DNA of 41,050 bases, from NCBI RefSeq assembly GCF_900110215.1, contig NZ_FOCX01000027.1, forward strand, positions 1 to 41,050. Direction: 5' to 3'. This document shows, in pieces, positions 5,914-29,822 of this stretch (positions are counted from its first letter, which is position 1; every line of letters begins with the position of its first letter). Source of the stretch: Halorientalis persicus (GTDB taxonomy: Archaea > Halobacteriota > Halobacteria > Halobacteriales > Haloarculaceae). A program made the translations under genes and the position numbers. A model generated the notes under the pieces. The model did not search any database and was not told the origin of the DNA. It was given only the letters and a program-made list of their open reading frames with translations.

Positions 5914-6578
5914 AGGTCCGTCCAGTCCGTGGGACCGTCGGTCAGCCCCATGACGCGGGCCTCGCGGCCGGCCTCGCCGTCGCGGACCTCGATCAGGCCG
6001 TCGAAGGCCTGTTTGATGACCTGGAGGGTCTGGTCGTCGTGGGCACCGCTGTCGATGGTGAACACGCCGATGTAGCCCGCGGCGTCCAGCCGCGAGGAGA
6101 GGACGTGACAGAACTTGAATACGGTCTCGCGGTTCGTGTAGGTGAGCATCGTCGACAGCGAGATGAGGGCCATCCGGCCTTCTTCAGCGCCCGCACCGTG
6201 GAGCGCTTCCAGACACTTCGTGATCCCGATCCCGATGCCGGTCAGGTCCCCAGGTGAGGAGACCTTGTGAACGTACAGGCCGGGCGGGGTGTCGCCGTCG
6301 GCGAGGCCGCCACCCGATCCCTCGGCACGGCAGTCGACGACGCCCAGCTGAAGGTTGTTGACGCCGGCGACGCGGTCGCGGTAGTCCTCGACGATGGTCT
6401 CTGCGCTGTCGCTCGTCGAGACGACGAGTGCGCCGTCGTCGTTTCGCGACCCCTCGGCCAGGATCTCCATCGCGAGGCTCTCTTTCCCGGTCATCGCCGG
6501 GCCAGCGATCAGGATGCTGGTTCCCGGGCGGACCTCCGACACTGCCTCAGTTTCCAGAACAGATGATAGGTCGTACAT
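5910..6578 (-). CDS. KaiC/RecA-like ATPase-fold signalling protein
   Basis: This 222-residue RecA-fold protein of the KaiC/Rad55-like group has a Walker A motif GPAMTGKES (residues 26-34) and the downstream strand-helix pattern of the family (LVVSTSDSAETIVEDYRDR, then STMLTYTNRETVFKFCHVLSSRL). The Walker B position is unusual: RMALISLSTML (135-145) has Ile where I recall Asp in KaiC-like relatives (CLDSLSTLL-type), and no catalytic Glu is evident. It may bind but not hydrolyse ATP. Its ATG overlaps the stop of the HalX response regulator (TAATG), so the two are translationally coupled and probably form one signalling unit. No DNA-binding domain is seen. Confidence 0.8.
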   Translation of the reverse strand: MYDLSSVLETEAVSEVRPGTSILIAGPAMTGKESLAMEILAEGSRNDDGALVVSTSDSAETIVEDYRDRVAGVNNLQLGVVDCRAEGSGGGLADGDTPPGLYVHKVSSPGDLTGIGIGITKCLEALHGAGAEEGRMALISLSTMLTYTNRETVFKFCHVLSSRLDAAGYIGVFTIDSGAHDDQTLQVIKQAFDGLIEVRDGEAGREARVMGLTDGPTDWTDL

Positions 6579-7162
6579 TACGTATCCTCACTCCCGCCGA
6601 TCTGCTGAATCGCCGTGATGAAGTCGGCGTCGTCCTCGACACCGCCCATCGTCTGAGAGAGTCCGTCCTGCAGGTCGGCGATCCGGTTCTGTAACTGTGC
6701 GTATTCGTCGCTCTCTGCCAGTTCCGCGCCACTCTTTGCCGTCTCCAGCGTGGCCTGCTTCTCCACCAGTGCGTAGTACTTCTGGAGCAGGCGGTCGTAG
6801 GTCGATCGTTCGAGGAGTTTCTCGACGGTCTCGATGAGCTCCTCGCTCCTGATCGGTTTGCTGAGATAGGCGTCGAACCCCATCTCCAGAATGTCGAAGT
6901 CGGGTTCGACGGCCGTCACCATCGCCACCCGACAGCCCAACTCCCGCTCCCGAATGCGTTCGAGCACCTCGTCGCCCGACAGCCCTGGCATCATCCGGTC
7001 GAGCAGAACCACGTCTACCTCCTCGTCGAGTTTGTCGAGCCCCTCGTCACCGTCCCCCGCGATCCGCACCTCGTAGTCGTCGGCGAGCCAGAGATTGTAG
7101 GTCTCGGCGACGTCGGGCTCGTCCTCGACGATGAGCACGACAGGTGCTGCTGAATCAGTCAT
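6578..7162 (-). CDS. HalX-type response regulator
   Basis: A 194-residue protein with an N-terminal receiver domain and a C-terminal HalX coiled-coil domain. Receiver residues are complete: Glu13-Asp14 acidic pocket, Asp55 phospho-acceptor in VVLLDRMMPGLSG, Thr83-type switch in MVTAVEP and Lys102 in LSKPI. Residues about 118-172 (STYDRLLQKYYALVEKQATLE...LQNRIADLQDGL) are the HalX helix-rich region. It lacks a DNA-binding domain, so output is probably by protein contact. I chose the ATG at 7162 (MTDSAAPVVLIVEDE); six further upstream codons do not fit. It is the first gene of a two-gene operon with the KaiC-like ATPase. No kinase is adjacent; the nearest in the window is at 11198-12910. Confidence 0.93.
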   Translation of the reverse strand: MTDSAAPVVLIVEDEPDVAETYNLWLADDYEVRIAGDGDEGLDKLDEEVDVVLLDRMMPGLSGDEVLERIRERELGCRVAMVTAVEPDFDILEMGFDAYLSKPIRSEELIETVEKLLERSTYDRLLQKYYALVEKQATLETAKSGAELAESDEYAQLQNRIADLQDGLSQTMGGVEDDADFITAIQQIGGSEDT

Positions 7163-7322
7163 CTGCGCTCTTGTACGCACTTACCATTCCTCATACATAG
7201 CCCTGTGGGTCGATACTCACACCTGATACCGATCCGTGGCTCTCCGTAGACCAACCAGACGCCTGTCAGGTCGTGTCAGCCTGAAGCGACACGCAAAAGC
7301 CGCCGCTCGCAGAACCGGGGAT

Positions 7323-7901
7323 ATGATCGTCAACCTCGCTCGTGGCGTCCGCGCGTTCACGAGCAACGTCTTCCTCGTGGACGGCGAGCGCACAGTGATC
7401 GTCGACGCCGGCAACGAGTTCGACGTCGTCGACGCGGCCCGCGAACACGTCGACGACGTGGACGCCCTCGTGATGACACACACCCACCCCGACCACGTCG
7501 GTAACCTCCCGGACATCGTCGCCGCGTTCGACGTGGACGTCTGGGGCTACGACACGAACCAGTCCGGCGTCGACCACGCCATCGACGACGAGGGAACCGT
7601 GACGCTGGGCGACCACGACTACCGCGCGCTCCACACCCCTGGCCACAAGGACGACCACCTCTGCTTTTACTCGGAGACCGCCAGCACGCTGTTCGCCGGC
7701 GACCTGATCTTCGCCAACGGTGGCTTCGGCCGTACCGACCTCGCCGAGGGGAATCGCGAGGTTCTCATCGACAGTATCGAACGCGTCCGCTCGGTCGTTC
7801 CCGAAACCCTCGGTGAGATGCACACCGGTCACGGCCCCAGCGTCCAGACCAACCCCTACCAGGACATCGAACTCGCCGCGCAGGCCGCCCGGATGGGCTG
7901 A
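7323..7901 (+). CDS. Metallo-beta-lactamase-fold hydrolase
   Basis: A 192-residue MBL-fold protein. The metal-binding signature HTHPDH is at residues 53-58, followed by the later ligands in LHTPGHKDDHLCF, FAGDLIF and MHTGHGP. This is the glyoxalase II-like subgroup in overall shape, but it is shorter than full glyoxalase II and lacks its C-terminal helical substrate domain. The substrate could be a thioester, lactone or similar; the sequence does not decide. The ATG at 7323 is chosen over upstream Arg-rich codons; CAAAAG (about 7291-7296) is a weak TATA-like box at leaderless distance. Its stop ends one base before the convergent stop of the next gene. Confidence 0.88.
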   Translation: MIVNLARGVRAFTSNVFLVDGERTVIVDAGNEFDVVDAAREHVDDVDALVMTHTHPDHVGNLPDIVAAFDVDVWGYDTNQSGVDHAIDDEGTVTLGDHDYRALHTPGHKDDHLCFYSETASTLFAGDLIFANGGFGRTDLAEGNREVLIDSIERVRSVVPETLGEMHTGHGPSVQTNPYQDIELAAQAARMG

Positions 7902-8702
7902 CTACTCCGCCGTAGCCAGCAGTTCCTCGTACCCGCGCTCGTAGGCGCTCGCCACCGCGGACGGGTCCTCCCGTTCATCGCTCGACAGCGCTGGGAGCGG
8001 TGCCGACCCCACCGGATCGATCAGGTCGACGACACCCGGCACGCGTTCCTCCAGTTGTCCCTCCTCGGGTCCGCCACTGGTGATCGAACAGGCCTTCCGA
8101 TACCGCTGGCCCTCGTAGATCCGAACGCGGGCCGGTTCCACGACGGCCACGGCGTCGGGTTCGAACTCACGGAGCGGTCGGGCCACGTCGCCGTAGGACT
8201 CGACCACGGCACGCTCTCGCTCCTCGATTCGCCGGGCGATGCCGTCCAGCGCGACCAGATGGAGGTTCCCCATGATCTCGTTCAGTTCGGGGAGCGACGA
8301 GACGTGCACCGCTTCCTCCAGCGGGAGGCACTTCCGGACTTCCGCCGGGATTTCGACGGTGTCGTTGACGACGTAGTTCTCGGCCACGCGGTCGACGACG
8401 AACTCCCGGTCAGTCTGGCCGAGCATTCCCGCCCCCTCGCCCGGTGACGGCCGCCAGAGCCGGTGGATCGGGTTGATATCCTCCGGATCGAGATCTCCGG
8501 GGCTGGCCGCGGCCAGGCGCTTGGCATCCTTCCCGAACAGGCGGCCCTGCTCGACGGCGTGGCGGTAGTCGTCGTGGTGGAACCAGTGGTCGTTGCCGGC
8601 ACGCGGCTTGAATCCAACCGCGTCGAGGTGATCGAGTAGACCGACGGTGAAGGTGGTCTTGCCGGCGTCGACCCGATCCGCGCCAGCGACGAGCAGTTTC
8701 AT
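7902..8702 (-). CDS. Predicted P-loop ATPase/GTPase
   Basis: The 266-residue protein opens with MKLLVAGADRVDAGKTTFTV, a deviant Walker A of the form GADRVDAGKTT as seen in a family of archaeal predicted P-loop ATPases/GTPases. Later blocks include FKPRAGNDHWFHHDDY, a QGRLFGKDAKRLA segment and INPIHRLWRP, which look like substrate-contact regions. The deviant P-loop and the 'GFKPRAGND' stretch recall SIMIBI-class proteins such as dethiobiotin synthetase, but no pathway neighbour supports that. It overlaps the upstream DUF5827-like gene by four bases (ATGA), so the pair is one operon. Confidence 0.75.
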   Translation of the reverse strand: MKLLVAGADRVDAGKTTFTVGLLDHLDAVGFKPRAGNDHWFHHDDYRHAVEQGRLFGKDAKRLAAASPGDLDPEDINPIHRLWRPSPGEGAGMLGQTDREFVVDRVAENYVVNDTVEIPAEVRKCLPLEEAVHVSSLPELNEIMGNLHLVALDGIARRIEERERAVVESYGDVARPLREFEPDAVAVVEPARVRIYEGQRYRKACSITSGGPEEGQLEERVPGVVDLIDPVGSAPLPALSSDEREDPSAVASAYERGYEELLATAE

Positions 8703-9013
8703 TCGCCGTCGGCGTCTGCCCCGTCAGTTTCGCCGGCGGGCGTCTCACCGGTCGCCAGCCCGTAGTGGCCGGGCTCGTCGTCGTCGGCTGGCTCGGCGAA
8801 CACGAAGGCCTCGCTGTTGTCGAGCATCCACGGGATGGTCCAGTCGAGCAGGATATCCTCGGTGGCCGGGTCGAGTTCCTGCCCCGGTTCCAGGCCCTGG
8901 AACAGGCGGGCGATTTCGTAGACGGTGTACATCTCGTCGTCGTCGAGCACTTCGTCGGGATCGCGGAACTCCAGAGACCGCAGATCGTCGAATTCGGATT
9001 TCGGAACGGGCAT
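8699..9013 (-). CDS. Conserved haloarchaeal protein, DUF5827-like
   Basis: A 104-residue acidic cytosolic protein starting MPVPKSEFDDLRSLEFRDPD. The central segment (MYTVYEIARLFQGLEPG...DILLDWTIPWMLDN) looks alpha-helical and compact, with a disordered acidic C-terminal tail. It resembles DUF5827 as I recall it, a haloarchaea-specific family without a known role. The last codons overlap the start of the P-loop ATPase by four bases, so the two are probably translated together and may work together. Confidence 0.75.
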   Translation of the reverse strand: MPVPKSEFDDLRSLEFRDPDEVLDDDEMYTVYEIARLFQGLEPGQELDPATEDILLDWTIPWMLDNSEAFVFAEPADDDEPGHYGLATGETPAGETDGADADGE

Positions 9014-9142
9014 ACTCGCTGGTTCGCACCGACGGGCCTAAACCCCCCGGAACTGGGCCGGCGATCCACGCCGCTTCGATCCGTGGTCCGTGGTGTGCAA
9101 TCAGCCGAAACTGGTATTGAGACGGCGCTGTTTCGGGGGTGT

Positions 9143-10327
9143 ATGCCAGACTCCGACCGATTCGGCGACGACCGCGTCAACGACATCTATCGCCGCGGGA
9201 TGTTGGAGGACGAGACCACGGACTTCCCGGTCTCTTACGCGGACCTCCGGAAGGCCGCCCACGCGGCCATGAGCGAGGAGGGCCGTGCCTACGTCCACGG
9301 CGGCGCGGGAAGCGACGAGACCTTCGAGCGAAACAAGGACTTCTCGCCGTGGCGGATCGTCCCCAAGATGCTCCGGGGCGTCGAGTCACGCGACCTCTCG
9401 ACGGAGATCGCCGGCGTCGACTTCGACGTGCCGATCGCGCTGACGCCACTGGGCGTCCAGTCGTTGCTCCACGACTCGGCGGAGATCGGCACGGCACAGG
9501 GGGCCGCCGAGATGGACGTGCCGCTCATCCTCAGCTCGCTCTCGACGGAACCGATGGAGGACGTGGCCGAGGCGCTGGGCGACACGCCGAAGATGTTCCA
9601 GTTCTACTGGTCCTCGGACGACGCCATCGCCAAGAGCTTCCTCGACCGTGCCGAGCAGGCCGGCTACGACGCTATCGTCGTCACCGTCGACGCGCCCATC
9701 CTGGGCTGGCGCGAGCGCCTGATCGAACGCGGCTACTACCCCTTCCTCGAAGGCGAGGGTGTGGGCAACTACTTCTCCGATCCGGAGTTCCGCTCTCAGC
9801 TCGATCAGCCGCCCGAGGACGATCCCTCGGCGGCGGTCGAGCACTTCCTCGACGTCTTCGGCGACTCCAGCCTCACGTGGGAAGACCTCCAGTTCGTCCA
9901 CGACAACACCGACCTCCCGGTCCTCATCAAGGGCATCCTCGACCCCGAGGACGCACGGCTGGCCATCGAACACGGCGCGGACGGCATCGGTGTCTCCACC
10001 CACGGCGGCCGCCAGGTCGACGGATCGATCTCGGCCATCGAGGCCCTGCCGGCCGTCGCCGAGGAAGTCGACGGCGAAGTGCCGATCACGTTCGACAGCG
10101 GCGTCCGGCGGGCATCCGACGCGTTCAAGGCCATCGCGCTGGGTGCCGACGCCGTGTTGCTCGGCCGACCCTACGCCTACTCGCTGGCGGTCGACGGGGC
10201 CGACGGCGTCGAGACCTACCTGCGGAACTTCATCGCGGAGTTCGACCTGACGATGGGGCTGTCGGGCTGTCGCACCGTCGACGAGATCACCCGGGACCGG
10301 CTCCGCCACGAGTCCGAGTTGCACTGA
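9143..10327 (+). CDS. FMN-dependent alpha-hydroxyacid oxidase/dehydrogenase (lactate monooxygenase-like)
   Basis: A 394-residue TIM-barrel flavoprotein of the glycolate oxidase/lactate 2-monooxygenase family. Visible signatures are AYVHGGAGSDETFERN (N-terminal, replacing the usual AxxYxxGGA), IALTPLGVQSLLHDSAE, the barrel Lys in VLIKGIL, the catalytic His-Gly-Gly-Arg in STHGGRQVDG (about 285-294, His287), FDSGVRR and GADAVLLGRPY (FMN phosphate). These enzymes oxidise L-2-hydroxy acids; whether this one passes electrons to oxygen or a carrier cannot be told. The ATG at 9143 is chosen because the upstream frame belongs to antisense sequence of the neighbour. It is monocistronic and transcribed away from the DUF5827-like operon. 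Confidence 0.9.
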   Translation: MPDSDRFGDDRVNDIYRRGMLEDETTDFPVSYADLRKAAHAAMSEEGRAYVHGGAGSDETFERNKDFSPWRIVPKMLRGVESRDLSTEIAGVDFDVPIALTPLGVQSLLHDSAEIGTAQGAAEMDVPLILSSLSTEPMEDVAEALGDTPKMFQFYWSSDDAIAKSFLDRAEQAGYDAIVVTVDAPILGWRERLIERGYYPFLEGEGVGNYFSDPEFRSQLDQPPEDDPSAAVEHFLDVFGDSSLTWEDLQFVHDNTDLPVLIKGILDPEDARLAIEHGADGIGVSTHGGRQVDGSISAIEALPAVAEEVDGEVPITFDSGVRRASDAFKAIALGADAVLLGRPYAYSLAVDGADGVETYLRNFIAEFDLTMGLSGCRTVDEITRDRLRHESELH

Positions 10328-25225: not shown

Positions 25226-26176
25226 CTAGTCAAGTACGATGTCGGCGAACGCCGGCGCACCGTTCTCGTACTCGGGGGACTCCTCGGAGTCACGGAACCG
25301 TCGGACGCTCTCGACGACCTCCGTAACGTCGGTGGCGTGTGCGATGCCGTCGATGTTCTTTCGCTCTGCCTCCTCCGCGAGGGCCTCCTGGAAGGGCAGG
25401 AAGGGGTAGATCACGCAGGGCGTGCCCGCGACGACCGTGTCCGCGATCGAGGAGAAGCCGGTACAGACGACGACGTCCGCGGCTCCGGTGTAGGGCGTCA
25501 TCGCCGGCGTGATGTCCCAGTCGTCGTCGGTGACCGACCGGACGTCCAGCCCGTCGGCCTCCAGTCGCTCCCGAATCTCGTCGAAGTTCTCCCCGTGCGT
25601 GCCGGGGTTGATCAGCACGTCGAAGGGTTCGACCTCTTCCTCGACCTCGCCGTCCTGAGCGAGCGGGCCGACCCGGGTGATCCCCTCGGGGTCGGGTTCG
25701 TCGGCCCACAGCGACGTGACGATGATCCCCTCGGCGAACTGCAGCGAGATCTCGTTGTAGATCTTCAAAGGACCTCGCCAGACCGGGTCCAGCAGGTCCT
25801 CGGTCAGGTGGTCGATCCGGTAGAACTCGATGCCCAGTTTCGCCGCCGCCAGGCCGGCGAACACGTCGTCGGTCACCAGTTTGTCGGGGTCTTCTTCCTT
25901 CAGCCACTGGTAGACCTCCCGCATCCGCCGGGCCGCCGAGGGGATCAGATCGAAGGCGGTGTGTTCCAGAAACTCCAGGGGCGTACTCCCTTCGACCGTC
26001 ACCGTGGTGAGATCGGGGTGGTCGTAGCCGTTGATCTCGACGAACTTCTTGCCCTTGCCGCCGCCGGCCATCGCGACCTCGACGCCGCGGGACTGGAGTT
26101 CGTTCGCGACCGGGATACTCCTGGCCGCGTGCCCCGCGCCGTCACACCAGTAGACGATTGCGACTTTCTCGGTCAT
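25226..26176 (-). CDS. GT-B glycosyltransferase (MurG/GT28-like)
   Basis: A 316-residue protein starting MTEKVAIVYWCDGAGHAARS. The GAGHAARSIPVANEL start matches the acceptor-side glycine loop plus helix of GT28-like enzymes, and ADVVVCTGFSSIADTVVAGT followed by PCVIYPFLPFQEALAEE is the C-terminal nucleotide-sugar-binding region. The protein has no membrane helix, so it would work on the cytoplasmic face using a sugar nucleotide and a lipid or polymer acceptor. The start at 26176 is supported by an AATAAA-type box 23-28 bases ahead. It is divergent from the alkaline-phosphatase-fold gene and likely shares its task. Confidence 0.82.
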   Translation of the reverse strand: MTEKVAIVYWCDGAGHAARSIPVANELQSRGVEVAMAGGGKGKKFVEINGYDHPDLTTVTVEGSTPLEFLEHTAFDLIPSAARRMREVYQWLKEEDPDKLVTDDVFAGLAAAKLGIEFYRIDHLTEDLLDPVWRGPLKIYNEISLQFAEGIIVTSLWADEPDPEGITRVGPLAQDGEVEEEVEPFDVLINPGTHGENFDEIRERLEADGLDVRSVTDDDWDITPAMTPYTGAADVVVCTGFSSIADTVVAGTPCVIYPFLPFQEALAEEAERKNIDGIAHATDVTEVVESVRRFRDSEESPEYENGAPAFADIVLD

Positions 26177-26275
26177 ACCCGACTCAAGACCCCTGCCGAA
26201 TAAATCGGATGTGGTCTCCGATCCGGCATCGATCGAAGTCACAGTTACTAATACGCCCCCGATGTGGCATCCGCC
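26177..26275. promoter_or_regulatory. Divergent promoter between glycosyltransferase and AlkP-fold genes
   Basis: In 99 bases there is a TATA-like element for each strand: TTTATT (26199-26204, minus) and TTACTAATA (26245-26253, plus). Each is about 23-31 bases from its start codon. Both genes can thus be leaderless and may be controlled together by a factor binding between the boxes. Confidence 0.55.
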
Positions 26276-27640
26276 ATGGAAGACGTTGCTACGGGACGAA
26301 AGAACGTCGTGTTCCTCGTTCTGGACTCACTGCGGAAGGATCGGACCTCCGTCTACAACGAGGACGTCGACTTCACGGGCCACCTGCAGGAGCTCGCGGA
26401 CTCGGGCGTCGTGTTCGAGGACGCCGTCACGCAGGCCCCGTGGACGCTCCCGTCGCACGCGTCGATGTTCACCGGCGAGTACCCCTGGGACCACGGCACG
26501 ACCCACGCCAGAAGTTACTTCGACGGCCGGGACACGTTCGTCACGGAGTTCGACAGCGCAGGGTACTCGACCGCGGCAATCACCCCGAACGTCTGGATCA
26601 CGCCACACAAGGGCATGACCGACGATTTCCACCACGTCGAGAACTTCCTCGGGAAGGCCGACAACCAGCTGAGCGTCACGCTCTCGAAACTCGGGACGAA
26701 ACTGTTCAACACACTCGGCGACGGCACGCGTCGCGTGCTGGGCCGCCAGCTCGACCGGATCTTCCGGTTGTTCGGCGTCGACGACTCTAACAAGTCCGAG
26801 GAGACGGTGGAAGCGGTCGAGGGGTACCTCGACGACCGGGGCGAGGACGGGGAGGACTTCTTCCTCTACGTCAACCTGATGGAGCCACACGAGCCGTACC
26901 ATCCCCCGACGTCCTACAAGGACCGCCACGGGGTGACCGACGAGTCGAAGATCCCACACCGGCAGAAGGATATGTTCACGAAAGACGACATCGACTTCGG
27001 CGAACTCCGGAAGGTCTACGACGCCTCCGTGGACTACACGGACGACCTCGTGGGGCGGGTCGTCGACGCGCTGGAAGCCAACGACCTCGACGACGACACC
27101 GTCGTGGTCGTGGTGTCGGACCACGGGCAGGCGCTGGGCGAAGACGGCGAGCAGTTCGGCCACCAGTTCACCGTCTCCGAACCGGTCGTGAACACGGTGT
27201 TGCTGGTCGATCACCCGGACCTCGATCCCGGCAGCGAGGACCAGCCGATCGAACTCCGGAAGCTCCACGAACTGGTGCCATACTACGCCGGCATCGCGGA
27301 CCGTCCCGAGGATGTTTTCAGTGAGACGGTGAAAGGCGGCATCGAGTACCCCGAGAACTTCACCGGGTACATCCCACGGGATCGCTGGGACGAGTACTAC
27401 CGGAAGCTCAGGTACGCCAAACGCGACGGGCGGAAAGTCGTCAAGTCGGTCGGCGAGGACGGCGAGGCACGATACGAGGCCTCCGATCTCGCAACCGACA
27501 CGGAAATCGAGGTTCCCGACGACCTCAAAGCGGCAGTCGACGGGGTCGGATCGGCCGAGACCGCGGGCGGGGACGCCGATCACGATCACGAGATGGTCGA
27601 GGAAGTCGAACAGCGGCTCGAAGAACTGGGCTACAAGTAA
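26276..27640 (+). CDS. Alkaline-phosphatase-fold 'sulfatase-like' hydrolase or transferase with Thr nucleophile
   Basis: A 454-residue cytosolic-looking protein of the sulfatase/alkaline phosphatase superfamily. Metal-binding Asp17 lies in VVFLVLDSLRKD, and Asp282-His283 in VVVVVSDHGQALGED with His296 in FGHQF. At the catalytic position the sequence is WTLPSH (56-61): Thr57 where sulfatases carry the Cys/Ser that becomes formylglycine, and His61 in place of Arg. Phosphoglycerol and phosphoethanolamine transferases and phosphodiesterases of this fold use Thr, so a phospho-transfer or phosphohydrolase role is more likely than sulfate removal. No signal peptide is seen. The C-terminal 80 residues are acidic and His/Asp-rich (DADHDHEMVEEVEQRLEEL). 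Confidence 0.82.
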   Translation: MEDVATGRKNVVFLVLDSLRKDRTSVYNEDVDFTGHLQELADSGVVFEDAVTQAPWTLPSHASMFTGEYPWDHGTTHARSYFDGRDTFVTEFDSAGYSTAAITPNVWITPHKGMTDDFHHVENFLGKADNQLSVTLSKLGTKLFNTLGDGTRRVLGRQLDRIFRLFGVDDSNKSEETVEAVEGYLDDRGEDGEDFFLYVNLMEPHEPYHPPTSYKDRHGVTDESKIPHRQKDMFTKDDIDFGELRKVYDASVDYTDDLVGRVVDALEANDLDDDTVVVVVSDHGQALGEDGEQFGHQFTVSEPVVNTVLLVDHPDLDPGSEDQPIELRKLHELVPYYAGIADRPEDVFSETVKGGIEYPENFTGYIPRDRWDEYYRKLRYAKRDGRKVVKSVGEDGEARYEASDLATDTEIEVPDDLKAAVDGVGSAETAGGDADHDHEMVEEVEQRLEELGYK

Positions 27641-27798
27641 CCGAGACGACGAGAGATGCACGGACCTACACAGTCGACCGGATCGCGACGACGCGAGTGT
27701 CGGCCCGATAGTCACCGGACTCCGATCCGGCAGGCGTCGGGACGGGTGCGCGTCACGGCCGAACCGGAATCGTGGGTGAAGACCCACGGGGGGCGTCG

Positions 27799-28824
27799 AT
27801 GCGACTTCCGATAAGCATCGGCTGGAAGGGCGCGGCCTGGTTCGGCGTCACCGGGGTGTTGTTTGCGGGACTGCTCTATCTGGCGGACCTCGGTGAGTTC
27901 CTGTCGTCGATCGGCCGTGCCGATCCCACCTTCTTCGCGATCGCCATCGCCGTTGGGTTCTCGTCGCTGCTGGTCTGGGCGCTCGTCTGGCACCGGTACT
28001 TCCGACGGATGGCGATCGAGACGACGCTCTCACGAACCGTCCGGATGTTCCTGACGGGCCACTTCCTGAACTCGATCACCCCGCTCGGGCAGTTCGGCGG
28101 CGAACCGATCATGGCCTACATCGTCTCGGACAACACCGACACCGACTACGAGACCTCACTGGCGTGTGTGATCTCGGCCGACATCCTGAACGCCACGCCG
28201 TTTTTCACCTTCACGCTCGGCGGACTCCTGTATCTCGCCGTGTTCGGGTCGCTAGAGGGGTTGCTCGTCGACATCGCGATTCTCTCGGTCTTGATCGTCC
28301 TCGTCGGCGGGCTGGTCGCGTACCTGCTGTGGTCCGACAACAGCGCGCTCGGGACCGCCGTGAACCGACTCCTGACCGCCGTCGGGGGCCGGTTCGACCG
28401 CGCCGAATCCCTCGTCCGATCGCTGCAAGAGCGAGTCGACCGGATCGAGGAGGCCTTCCAGGAGGCTGGCAGCGACCCCGGATTCCTGCTGACGACCGCC
28501 GGCGTCTCACACCTCGCGATCGTCGCACAGATCGTCTCGCTGTACTTCGTCTTCCTGTCGATCGGTATCGAGCCCGATTTCGTTCCGCTGTACCTCATCG
28601 TGAACCTCTCGGTCATCGCGACGCTGTCGCCGACCCCCGGCGGGTCGGGGACGTACGAGGTCGCGTTCTCGGCGCTGGTGACGCTGTTTTTCCCGGTCGA
28701 GCTGGCGACGGCAGTGACGGCCGCCGTCCTCTTCCGCCTCACGACTTACTGGCCGGGGTTGCTCGTCGGGTACGTGTCCATGCTGACGCTGCGGAGCAGC
28801 CCGACGCCGGACGGGGCCGAGTAG
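27799..28824 (+). CDS. Flippase-like UPF0104/LPG-synthase-TM family membrane protein
   Basis: A 341-residue protein with about eight hydrophobic helices, starting MRLPISIGWKGAAWFGVTGV. GHFLNSITPLGQFGGEPIMAY and TLSPTPGGSGTYEVAF are the two family signature loops of the UPF0104/lysylphosphatidylglycerol-synthase transmembrane domain. Archaeal members include AglD-type proteins in S-layer glycosylation and putative lipid flippases. Lying behind the AlkP-fold gene (158 bases gap) and the divergent glycosyltransferase, it may flip or modify the lipid-linked product. I use the ATG at 27799; a further upstream GTG-type start adds nine residues. Confidence 0.87.
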   Translation: MRLPISIGWKGAAWFGVTGVLFAGLLYLADLGEFLSSIGRADPTFFAIAIAVGFSSLLVWALVWHRYFRRMAIETTLSRTVRMFLTGHFLNSITPLGQFGGEPIMAYIVSDNTDTDYETSLACVISADILNATPFFTFTLGGLLYLAVFGSLEGLLVDIAILSVLIVLVGGLVAYLLWSDNSALGTAVNRLLTAVGGRFDRAESLVRSLQERVDRIEEAFQEAGSDPGFLLTTAGVSHLAIVAQIVSLYFVFLSIGIEPDFVPLYLIVNLSVIATLSPTPGGSGTYEVAFSALVTLFFPVELATAVTAAVLFRLTTYWPGLLVGYVSMLTLRSSPTPDGAE

Positions 28825-28846: not shown

Positions 28847-29680
28847 TCATCCGAGCGCCTCCGGATAGGACTCGGGCACGCCAAAGCCCGCGGTGCGCAA
28901 CCGCTCGTGACCGTCGGTGAGTCGGTCGACCCACTGCTGGCCGGCGTCGGTGAGCGCCGTCGCGGCGTACCGGATCGGTTGCCCTCGGACCGTCCGGTCG
29001 TCGAGGTCGTAAGCGGCCCGGGCGTAACTGTCGGCCCGATCAGGTGAGGAGAAGTCGATCCGGTCGGACAGGGTGACGTAGGGGAGGTCGCGCTCGACGG
29101 CCATGTTGCGGTAGACGAAGGCCGCGTCGAGGTCACCCCGTTCGAGGACGTTCGCCAGATCCGTCTCGGGCAGGATGCGAGCGTTGCCCAGCGCTCGGTC
29201 GGCGTCGAGCAGGTCGTCCCGCGCGGCCAGATCGAGCGCCATCACCGTCCGGTAGCCCAGCGGGTCGACAGCCGGATCGGTCCGCCCGACGGCGACGGTC
29301 GACCGCTGGACGGCGCTCGTCCAGTCGTCGCGGATAGCGTCCGCGTGCCCGGATTCGGGGTTGTACGCCACCACGAGCGCGTTCGTCGCGAAGGCCGTCA
29401 CCGTCGTCGCGATCCCCTCGAACAGTCGCGGGTCGGCCAGTGCGACCGCGTCCGGATCTCGGAGTCCGTCCCGGATCAACTGCCGCACGGCGACGCTCCC
29501 GTGGGCCTCGACCGTCGCACCGGGTACCTGCGAGGCGACACTCAACAGACTCCCCGCGACGAGCGCCGACGGCCGCTCGTCCGCGGAGTCAGTCACCACA
29601 CCGTACACCGCCGCGCCGAGTCCACCCGCGACGGCCGTGCCACCGAGCCCCGCGAGGAGATTCCGACGTGTCAGATTCAT
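28847..29680 (-). CDS. Tat-exported molybdate/tungstate-type binding protein
   Basis: A 277-residue protein with a twin-arginine signal (NLTRRNLLAGLGGTAVAGGLGAA, shown to 20 as TRRNLLAGLGGTAVAGGLGA), followed by a type II periplasmic-binding fold: ALVAGSLLSVASQVPGATVEA, VALADPRLFEGIATT, ATNALVVAYNPES, ILPETDLANVLERGDLDAAF and VYRNMAVERDLPYVTL. This is the ModA/WtpA-like oxyanion-binding pattern. The usual ModB/ModC permease and ATPase genes are not adjacent, so the protein either serves a transporter elsewhere or is a sensor. No lipobox Cys is seen, so it may stay anchored through an uncleaved signal. The start at 29680 puts RR at residues 5-6. Confidence 0.82.
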   Translation of the reverse strand: MNLTRRNLLAGLGGTAVAGGLGAAVYGVVTDSADERPSALVAGSLLSVASQVPGATVEAHGSVAVRQLIRDGLRDPDAVALADPRLFEGIATTVTAFATNALVVAYNPESGHADAIRDDWTSAVQRSTVAVGRTDPAVDPLGYRTVMALDLAARDDLLDADRALGNARILPETDLANVLERGDLDAAFVYRNMAVERDLPYVTLSDRIDFSSPDRADSYARAAYDLDDRTVRGQPIRYAATALTDAGQQWVDRLTDGHERLRTAGFGVPESYPEALG

Positions 29681-29822
29681 CGGCTTCTGTGTTGGGAGAT
29701 AGTAACTGCGATCGGTCACGCTAGCTCTACTTCGTGGTTGAATATCGTTTCGGACGCGGCATAAGTATGTCCCCGAACGCCGCCAGCGCACCGCGTTCCC
29801 GGAGCCTGGAAACACCCGCCCG

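Follow-up and report, generated by a model that had tools for sequence, protein, structure and literature searches.

In this work we have examined three neighbouring genes in a stretch of 41,050 nucleotides from Halorientalis persicus (contig NZ_FOCX01000027.1; the whole stretch is called the window below), which encode a GT-B glycosyltransferase (GT), an enzyme of the alkaline phosphatase fold (AlkP) and a flippase-like membrane protein of the UPF0104 family. The host genome is haloarchaeal and comprises 4.87 Mb in 121 contigs. The three genes form a real, conserved envelope module whose parts are of known kinds, and they lie as follows:

25226..26176, minus strand: GT-B glycosyltransferase gene, 316 amino acids, GT1/GT28-like and MJ1255-related (open reading frame, 14 aligned orthologues, AlphaFold model)
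26276..27640, plus strand: AlkP-fold (PF00884) gene, 454 amino acids, with Thr57 and a C-terminal RLxxLGY tail (profile, alignment and model)
27799..28824, plus strand: UPF0104 / LPG_synthase_TM (TIGR00374) flippase-like gene, 341 amino acids (profile scores, 7 hydrophobic segments)

A first-pass annotation, made from the sequence alone, had the GT and AlkP genes diverge across a 99-base region and a UPF0104-type membrane protein gene follow the AlkP gene. This layout holds, positions 26177-26275 being exactly 99 bases and the protein encoded at 27799-28824 (plus strand) passing the cut-offs of both PF03706 and TIGR00374.

Conservation of the three-gene block

When 392 genomes of the order were surveyed, 94 had a relative of the GT at an E-value of 1e-30 or better, and the identities showed a clear gap, with 14 genomes at 65-100% and the remainder at about 41% or less. 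All 14 genomes with a GT orthologue also have the AlkP (66-100% identity) and the flippase-like protein (63-100%), with the three genes together in the same order and the GT gene divergent; G041 and G043 carry an RGP gene between AlkP and flippase. The first-pass annotation had itself proposed linkage in other genomes as its test, and this complete conservation answers it. Could these nevertheless be unrelated housekeeping genes that are neighbours by chance? The flanking genes in the window are indeed unrelated (an ABC transporter, an acyl-CoA ligase, an HPP-family protein and a WtpA-like protein), but order and orientation are kept across four family codes, the 14 carriers have different flanking genes and versions of the block occur in nanohaloarchaea, so that we regard this most improbable explanation as refuted by conservation. 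Among 16 named loci, which belong partly to the same genomes and whose counts are therefore not independent of the 14, GT, AlkP and flippase are present in 16/16, a GT4 gene in 12/16 and RGP in 3/16. The rough script used for gene calls over-extended certain starts and overlooked the GT of L035 and of L083, in both of which a search found the gene. Literature titles and abstract openings held no description of this block, most subscription papers lying outside that coverage.

Orthologue alignments fix the gene starts of the block, with ATG at 26176 for the GT, whose M1 is invariant in 14/14 aligned orthologues, and ATG at 26276 for the AlkP. The region between them contains the following features, the promoter elements being inferred from a comparison of loci:

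26177..26275, no strand: divergent spacer between the GT and AlkP genes, 99 bases, probable promoter region (95-143 bases in the 13 haloarchaeal loci compared)
26245..26253, plus strand: TATA-like TTACTAATA, putative promoter element of the AlkP gene, centred 27 bases 5' of the ATG
26199..26204, minus strand: TATA-like TTTATT, putative promoter element of the GT gene, centred about 26 bases 5' of the ATG

Thirteen loci entered the comparison, namely the window's and 12 named ones. It omitted L104, L110 and L113, and L114, whose spacer faces RGP, does not enter the counts. In the 40 bases preceding the AlkP ATG, TTACTAA is found in 9/13 loci and CTAA in 13/13; in the 40 bases preceding the GT ATG, TTTAT or TTATAT occurs in 12/13, at variable distance. 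The spacer thus has the look that would be expected of two divergent leaderless promoters.

Two of the flanking genes recur elsewhere. The HPP-family membrane protein (PF04982; 24628-25149) adjoins the GT gene in L035 and L037 as it does in the window, and is probably a mere local neighbour, since the other block loci read showed no such gene. The WtpA-like substrate-binding protein (28847-29815), convergent after the block, is present in L035, L036 and L037 too, and matches the tungstate WtpA model at 3.8e-31, under its cut-off. A search of the three block proteins against PADLOC (defence systems) gave no match at E 0.01, and on that result we rejected a defence-system identity.

The glycosyltransferase, the flippase-like protein and their partners

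The AlphaFold model of the GT (mean pLDDT 88.3) has a GT-B fold, as do the enzymes in its 50 best Foldseek rows. The name MurG/GT28-like, given in the first pass, is thus right as to the fold and applies broadly only, since MurG (7d1i_B) ranks 50th (E 1.5e-11), below GT1-type enzymes. The best VIA match is the yeast sterol glucosyltransferase UGT51 (5gl5_A; Z 25.2, rmsd 3.1, 306 residues aligned), with the rows just below it tied. No curated family passes its cut-off for the window GT; the best, the MJ1255/VC2487 family (TIGR00661), scores 25.3 against 195.9 bits (8.1e-6), and although it is the closest curated match the GT is not a member by that model. A scan with Pfam-type profiles gave no GT28 profile at E 0.01, and a nanohaloarchaeal relative reaches 20.4 bits with Glyco_tran_28_C, whose cut-off is 22. 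Searched by sequence against solved structures, the window GT returned nothing significant; a profile search led to a UDP-glycosyltransferase at E 0.01.

In other haloarchaea, distant relatives of the GT (about 34-39% identity; L051, L053, L056 and L092-L097) adjoin a gene of the beta-RFAP synthase family in 9/13 loci examined, a second conserved and unexplained partnership of this GT family. The beta-RFAP synthase copy of L053 scores 151 bits with TIGR00144, over the cut-off of 113.5, yet stays below the equivalog cut-off. In L055 (G057, 6022-9760) a flippase-like gene has as immediate neighbours a GT4 gene on one side and a distant GT relative on the other, and the nearest AlkP (28% identity) is about 5 kb off, a further rearrangement of the same parts.

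The flippase-like protein scores 148.1 bits with PF03706 and 119.3 bits with TIGR00374, where the curated cut-offs are 33.4 and 43.2 bits, and it has 7 hydrophobic segments; a sequence search of solved structures found nothing significant for it. Its assignment to the UPF0104/AglD-type family, made already in the first pass, agrees with the published prediction of UPF0104 proteins as flippases in archaeal glycosylation (PMC5898192; this and the other papers cited by PMC number are represented here by parts of their text). The passages of that paper on gene neighbourhoods describe others than ours, and the term 'alkaline phosphatase' is absent from its main text.

A GT4 gene follows the GT in 9/14 block genomes. 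A search of 50 genomes found orthologues of it (at least 54% identity) in 17, in every case no more than 4.5 kb from a flippase match; the window's genus has no GT4 gene beside the block, and its GT4 matches at E 1e-60 are only 38-39% identical. The best curated relatives of the GT4 protein are alpha-monoglucosyl-diacylglycerol synthase (1.3e-24) and GlcNAc-phosphatidylglycerol synthase (6.8e-19), both far under the cut-off. RGP, present in 45/50 haloarchaeal genomes searched, matches PF03214 and solved structures named transglycosylase and UDP-arabinopyranose mutase. A DUF2070 gene adjoins the block in L083-L085, all of one haloarchaeal genus code (the family was tested on the L084 copy).

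The AlkP-fold enzyme and the proposed product

The AlkP protein scores 130.5 bits with the Pfam Sulfatase profile (PF00884; cut-off 25), and D17, T57, H205, D282, H283 and H296 are invariant in 16/16 aligned block proteins, the AlkP of L104, with its run of N, being excluded. By analogy with the superfamily, these residues are the putative metal ligands and nucleophile. The AlkP fold with a Thr nucleophile, as read in the first pass, accords with the profile score and with Thr57, which occupies the nucleophile position. In a wider set of 33 AlkP proteins, Thr is found in 14/14 block members and 18/19 others, and the remaining five residues in 33/33. In formylglycine (S1) sulfatases the Cys or Ser of a C/S-x-P-x-R motif becomes formylglycine; we rejected an enzyme of this class since every block protein aligned has Thr57-Leu-Pro-Ser-His (motif WTLPSH). 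None of the 33 proteins, the window's included, has a hydrophobic segment by a hydropathy-only criterion (19-residue window, mean hydropathy at least 1.6, without a dedicated signal predictor), which suggests that the AlkP is probably cytosolic. The catalytic domains of LtaS and EptA work outside the membrane, and a secreted enzyme of their type was rejected on this same hydropathy result.

We hypothesize, giving the idea about an even chance, that the three genes provide the core steps of a conserved assembly line making a lipid-carried surface saccharide, in which glycosyl transfer, anionic decoration and flipping are combined. With the substrates, the order of steps and the direction of flipping as we infer them, the GT-B enzyme, joined by the GT4 enzyme in most orthologous blocks though not in the window's, would add sugar to a membrane lipid carrier at the cytoplasmic face; the soluble AlkP-fold enzyme would then add an anionic group to the saccharide, Thr57 being either the nucleophile or part of the group-binding site; and the UPF0104 protein would carry, or help to carry, the finished molecule to the outer leaflet. 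The AlkP-core proteins Agl30 and Agl31 (VNG1056C/VNG1057C), of which Agl31 is soluble, are sulfotransferases of the Halobacterium N-linked tetrasaccharide, and the authors argue that they act on the dolichol-phosphate-linked glycan precursor; sulfate transfer is also the only activity that we found experimentally assigned to haloarchaeal AlkP-core proteins (PMC11980604). By analogy with Agl31, a predicted-cytosolic AlkP would favour decoration at the cytoplasmic face before flipping, with sulfate as the first guess for the anionic group, though it may also be phosphate. As to the acceptor, the likeness of GT4 to diacylglycerol glycosyltransferases and of the GT to a sterol glucosyltransferase point to a membrane lipid.

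The first-pass annotation had spoken of a phosphate-decorated product. On this alternative, the AlkP transfers a phospho-group (phosphoglycerol, phosphatidyl or phosphoethanolamine) to the saccharide and the block is an archaeal analogue of YpfP/LtaA/LtaS. The lipoteichoic acid set-up of Gram-positive bacteria consists of a GT-B glycolipid synthase (YpfP), a flippase (LtaA) and an AlkP-fold Thr enzyme (LtaS), and the GT-B enzyme, flippase and AlkP of the block repeat it; the Thr at the nucleophile position together with D17, D282, H283 and H296 is as in LtaS/EptA-type enzymes. The model of the AlkP (pLDDT 65.9) has carbohydrate sulfatases and phosphonate monoester hydrolases as its best Foldseek matches, and VIA aligns it to sulfatase 8di0_B with Z 25.5 (rmsd 4.2, 354 aligned), to the lipoteichoic acid synthase LtaP (4uop_B) with Z 25.2 (rmsd 3.7, 331 aligned) and to LtaS with Z 23.5. 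Since sulfatases and lipoteichoic acid synthases fit equally, the fold cannot choose between sulfate and phosphate. The genus description of Halorutilus, which mentions 'one phospholipid chromatographically identical to' S-DGD-1 (PMC10134839), also speaks for phospho-transfer. However, EptA-type models and structures match the sequence more weakly than sulfatases do, a protein with no hydrophobic segment is unlike LtaS and EptA, and the characterised haloarchaeal AlkP-core proteins transfer sulfate (PMC11980604); phosphate decoration was a guess, and we consider it possible but doubtful. Perhaps the AlkP is a hydrolase instead, which strips an intermediate (lipid-linked, or a nucleotide sugar) of phosphate or sulfate and thereby lets the GT or the flippase proceed. 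The nearest AlkP families are mostly hydrolases, but this role is unlikely, since Thr replaces the formylglycine-type Cys/Ser in 16/16 proteins and haloarchaeal AlkP-core proteins of known function add sulfate rather than remove it (PMC11980604).

AlkP and flippase matches also lie at most 3 kb apart in 27/58 relatives (read by hand), namely 6 block carriers and 21/52 others, where 0.47 neighbouring pairs would be expected at random. In the 21 non-carriers the pair, which we call W, is more distant (AlkP about 34-39%, flippase about 28-35% identity), and it is present in 0/14 block carriers against 21/52 non-carriers (Fisher p 0.003; the E thresholds differ between the two sets, and both this value and the chance estimate ignore relatedness). 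In the window's genus, W is found in G001, G004 and G006, the block in G000, G002, G003 and G007, and neither in G005. The carrier G007 keeps a W-type AlkP (L088) with no flippase match nearby, so the exclusion between block and W holds for the pair and not for the AlkP alone. In the AlkP tree (FastTree, midpoint root) the block and nanohaloarchaeal proteins form a clade (support 1.0) beside that of the W pair (1.0), the joint clade having 0.995, which fits one AlkP-flippase partnership that may exist in two versions. The joint clade is apart from 31 sampled AlkPs of aglB neighbourhoods, a set that is not a random sample because the neighbourhoods were partly picked for nearby AlkP matches. 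Thirty-three rows of the tree carry the aglB-neighbourhood label; two of them, from locus L090, have no known proximity to aglB. L081, which contains a run of N, was excluded, as were the 6 of 39 aglB-neighbourhood matches that are shorter than 381 amino acids.

In the aglB neighbourhoods themselves (L089 and L126-L142, a non-random choice), AlkP-core genes occur in 15 of the 17 haloarchaeal ones read, mostly one to four each. Several of their products have Ser at the Thr57 position and most end in an LGY-type tail; they are candidates for further Agl30/31-like sulfotransferases.

Is it possible that the block makes a dolichol-phosphate-linked glycan for N-glycosylation, used by an AglB encoded elsewhere? 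UPF0104 domains are present in AglD and in N-glycosylation neighbourhoods (PMC5898192), AlkP-core genes are found around aglB, and 12/14 block carriers have an STT3/AglB match elsewhere. Against this, in all 12 the block and the match are on separate contigs or some 100 kb or more apart, the AlkP clade that it shares with the W pair excludes the 31 aglB-neighbourhood proteins, and the GT4 partner resembles membrane-glycolipid synthases; we find the idea improbable. The first pass had remarked that no AglB was adjacent and had concluded on a separate pathway. The separation from STT3/AglB extends to these 12 carriers, and a separate pathway would fit it, though unproven.

Several observations weigh against our assembly-line hypothesis. 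Halorutilus salinus, which has the block together with GT4 and RGP, is reported to be without glycolipids (PMC10134839), and the lipid evidence conflicts. The sulfotransferase assignment is by analogy only, as the AlkPs sampled from aglB neighbourhoods fall outside the block's AlkP clade, and VNG1063H, a third AlkP-core gene of the Halobacterium cluster, showed no role in glycan sulfation (PMC11980604). The confidence of the AlkP model is modest, its fit is no better to sulfatases than to lipoteichoic acid synthases, and the GT4 and GT leads lie under curated cut-offs. Finally, the flippase match of one block genome out of 14, G336, contains an in-frame TGA, and the 20 kb of one nanohaloarchaeal version (L125) show no AlkP.

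Synthesis of the sulfolipid S-DGD as the sole role of the block was not accepted, since a glycolipid of Halonotius cannot be told from S-DGD-1 by chromatography (PMC6719526) but Halorutilus is reported without glycolipids. The abstract and outline of a lipidome paper, together with a term search of it, gave no mention of Halorientalis, Halonotius, Halopenitus or Halohasta (PMC10704169).

Nanohaloarchaeal versions and known systems

The first-pass annotation overlooked the GT4 gene of most orthologous blocks (the window block is without it), the W family and the nanohaloarchaeal copies. The GT is found at E 1e-20 in 3/28 genomes of the nanohaloarchaeal phylum. In Candidatus Nanosalina J07AB43 (L114) the block shows identities of 47% for the GT, 43% for the AlkP, 41% for the flippase, whose frame is shorter than the haloarchaeal ones, and 70% for RGP; in a metagenome-assembled genome of the same phylum (L113) they are 61% for the GT, 33% for a second GT, 47% for the AlkP, 46% for the flippase, 73% for RGP and 53% for GT4. 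A further Nanosalina locus, L124, combines GTs, flippase, RGP and DUF2070 with an AlkP whose sequence is broken by runs of N, and G417 (L125) has GTs, flippase, RGP and DUF2070. An FkbM-type methyltransferase gene lies between the GT and RGP genes of L125 (10367-11155). In the GT tree the haloarchaeal block and 6/8 nanohaloarchaeal copies group with 100/100 support, the haloarchaeal copies standing inside the nanohaloarchaeal ones. For RGP, the copies in blocks L038 and L039 lie closer to the nanohaloarchaeal proteins (branch 100/100, midpoint-rooted) than to the RGP that haloarchaea carry elsewhere in the genome. A transfer from nanohaloarchaea to haloarchaea was not accepted as the direction, because a grouping of the six of eight nanohaloarchaeal copies was not rejected (AU p 0.092) and the RGP tree was not decisive.

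More questions are raised by these copies. Could the block be a portable surface-decoration pathway, horizontally transferred between nanohaloarchaeal ectosymbionts and haloarchaea, which makes a furanose-containing, sulfated or phosphorylated lipid-linked saccharide for the recognition or avoidance of partners and replaces the W pair? Its fullest form would comprise MurG/UGT-like GTs, GT4, AlkP, the UPF0104 flippase, an RGP-type nucleotide-sugar mutase and DUF2070; no single locus read has all of these. That the portable block would stand in for the W pair is suggested by the absence of this pair from the carriers and its presence in 21/52 non-carriers. We put this idea forward as an improbable one. 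Two papers describe other members of the nanohaloarchaeal phylum as unable to make most of their lipids, and the nanohaloarchaeal versions are a candidate means by which a symbiont decorates a membrane made of lipids that it possibly does not synthesise. In haloarchaea, the sources consulted assign few genes outside N-glycosylation to the assembly, decoration and flipping of sugar lipids. A fixed cassette of GT, soluble AlkP and flippase, with GT4 in most carriers, is a compact gene set for this purpose, and would show whether sulfotransfer by AlkP-fold enzymes extends beyond N-glycosylation.

Each known system shares part of this arrangement. With YpfP-LtaA-LtaS the block has in common a GT-B glycolipid synthase, a flippase and an AlkP-fold Thr enzyme; the flippase is of another family, the block AlkP is without a membrane domain or signal, and there is no evidence of a polymer. 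With UPF0104/arCOG00899, known as the C-terminal domain of AglD and the flippase domain of MprF (PMC5898192), the flippase-like protein shares its family scores and GT neighbours, whereas it stands alone and is paired with an AlkP. Agl30 and Agl31 differ in being encoded in the aglB cluster, where the block is not found in the 12/14 carriers with an STT3/AglB match, and the window AlkP clade differs from the AlkPs of other genomes' aglB neighbourhoods, used here as a stand-in for VNG1056C/VNG1057C. They resemble the window AlkP in being AlkP-core proteins of haloarchaea that have a surface saccharide as substrate, as proposed for the window's; the solubility of Agl31 (PMC11980604) is predicted for the window AlkP too.

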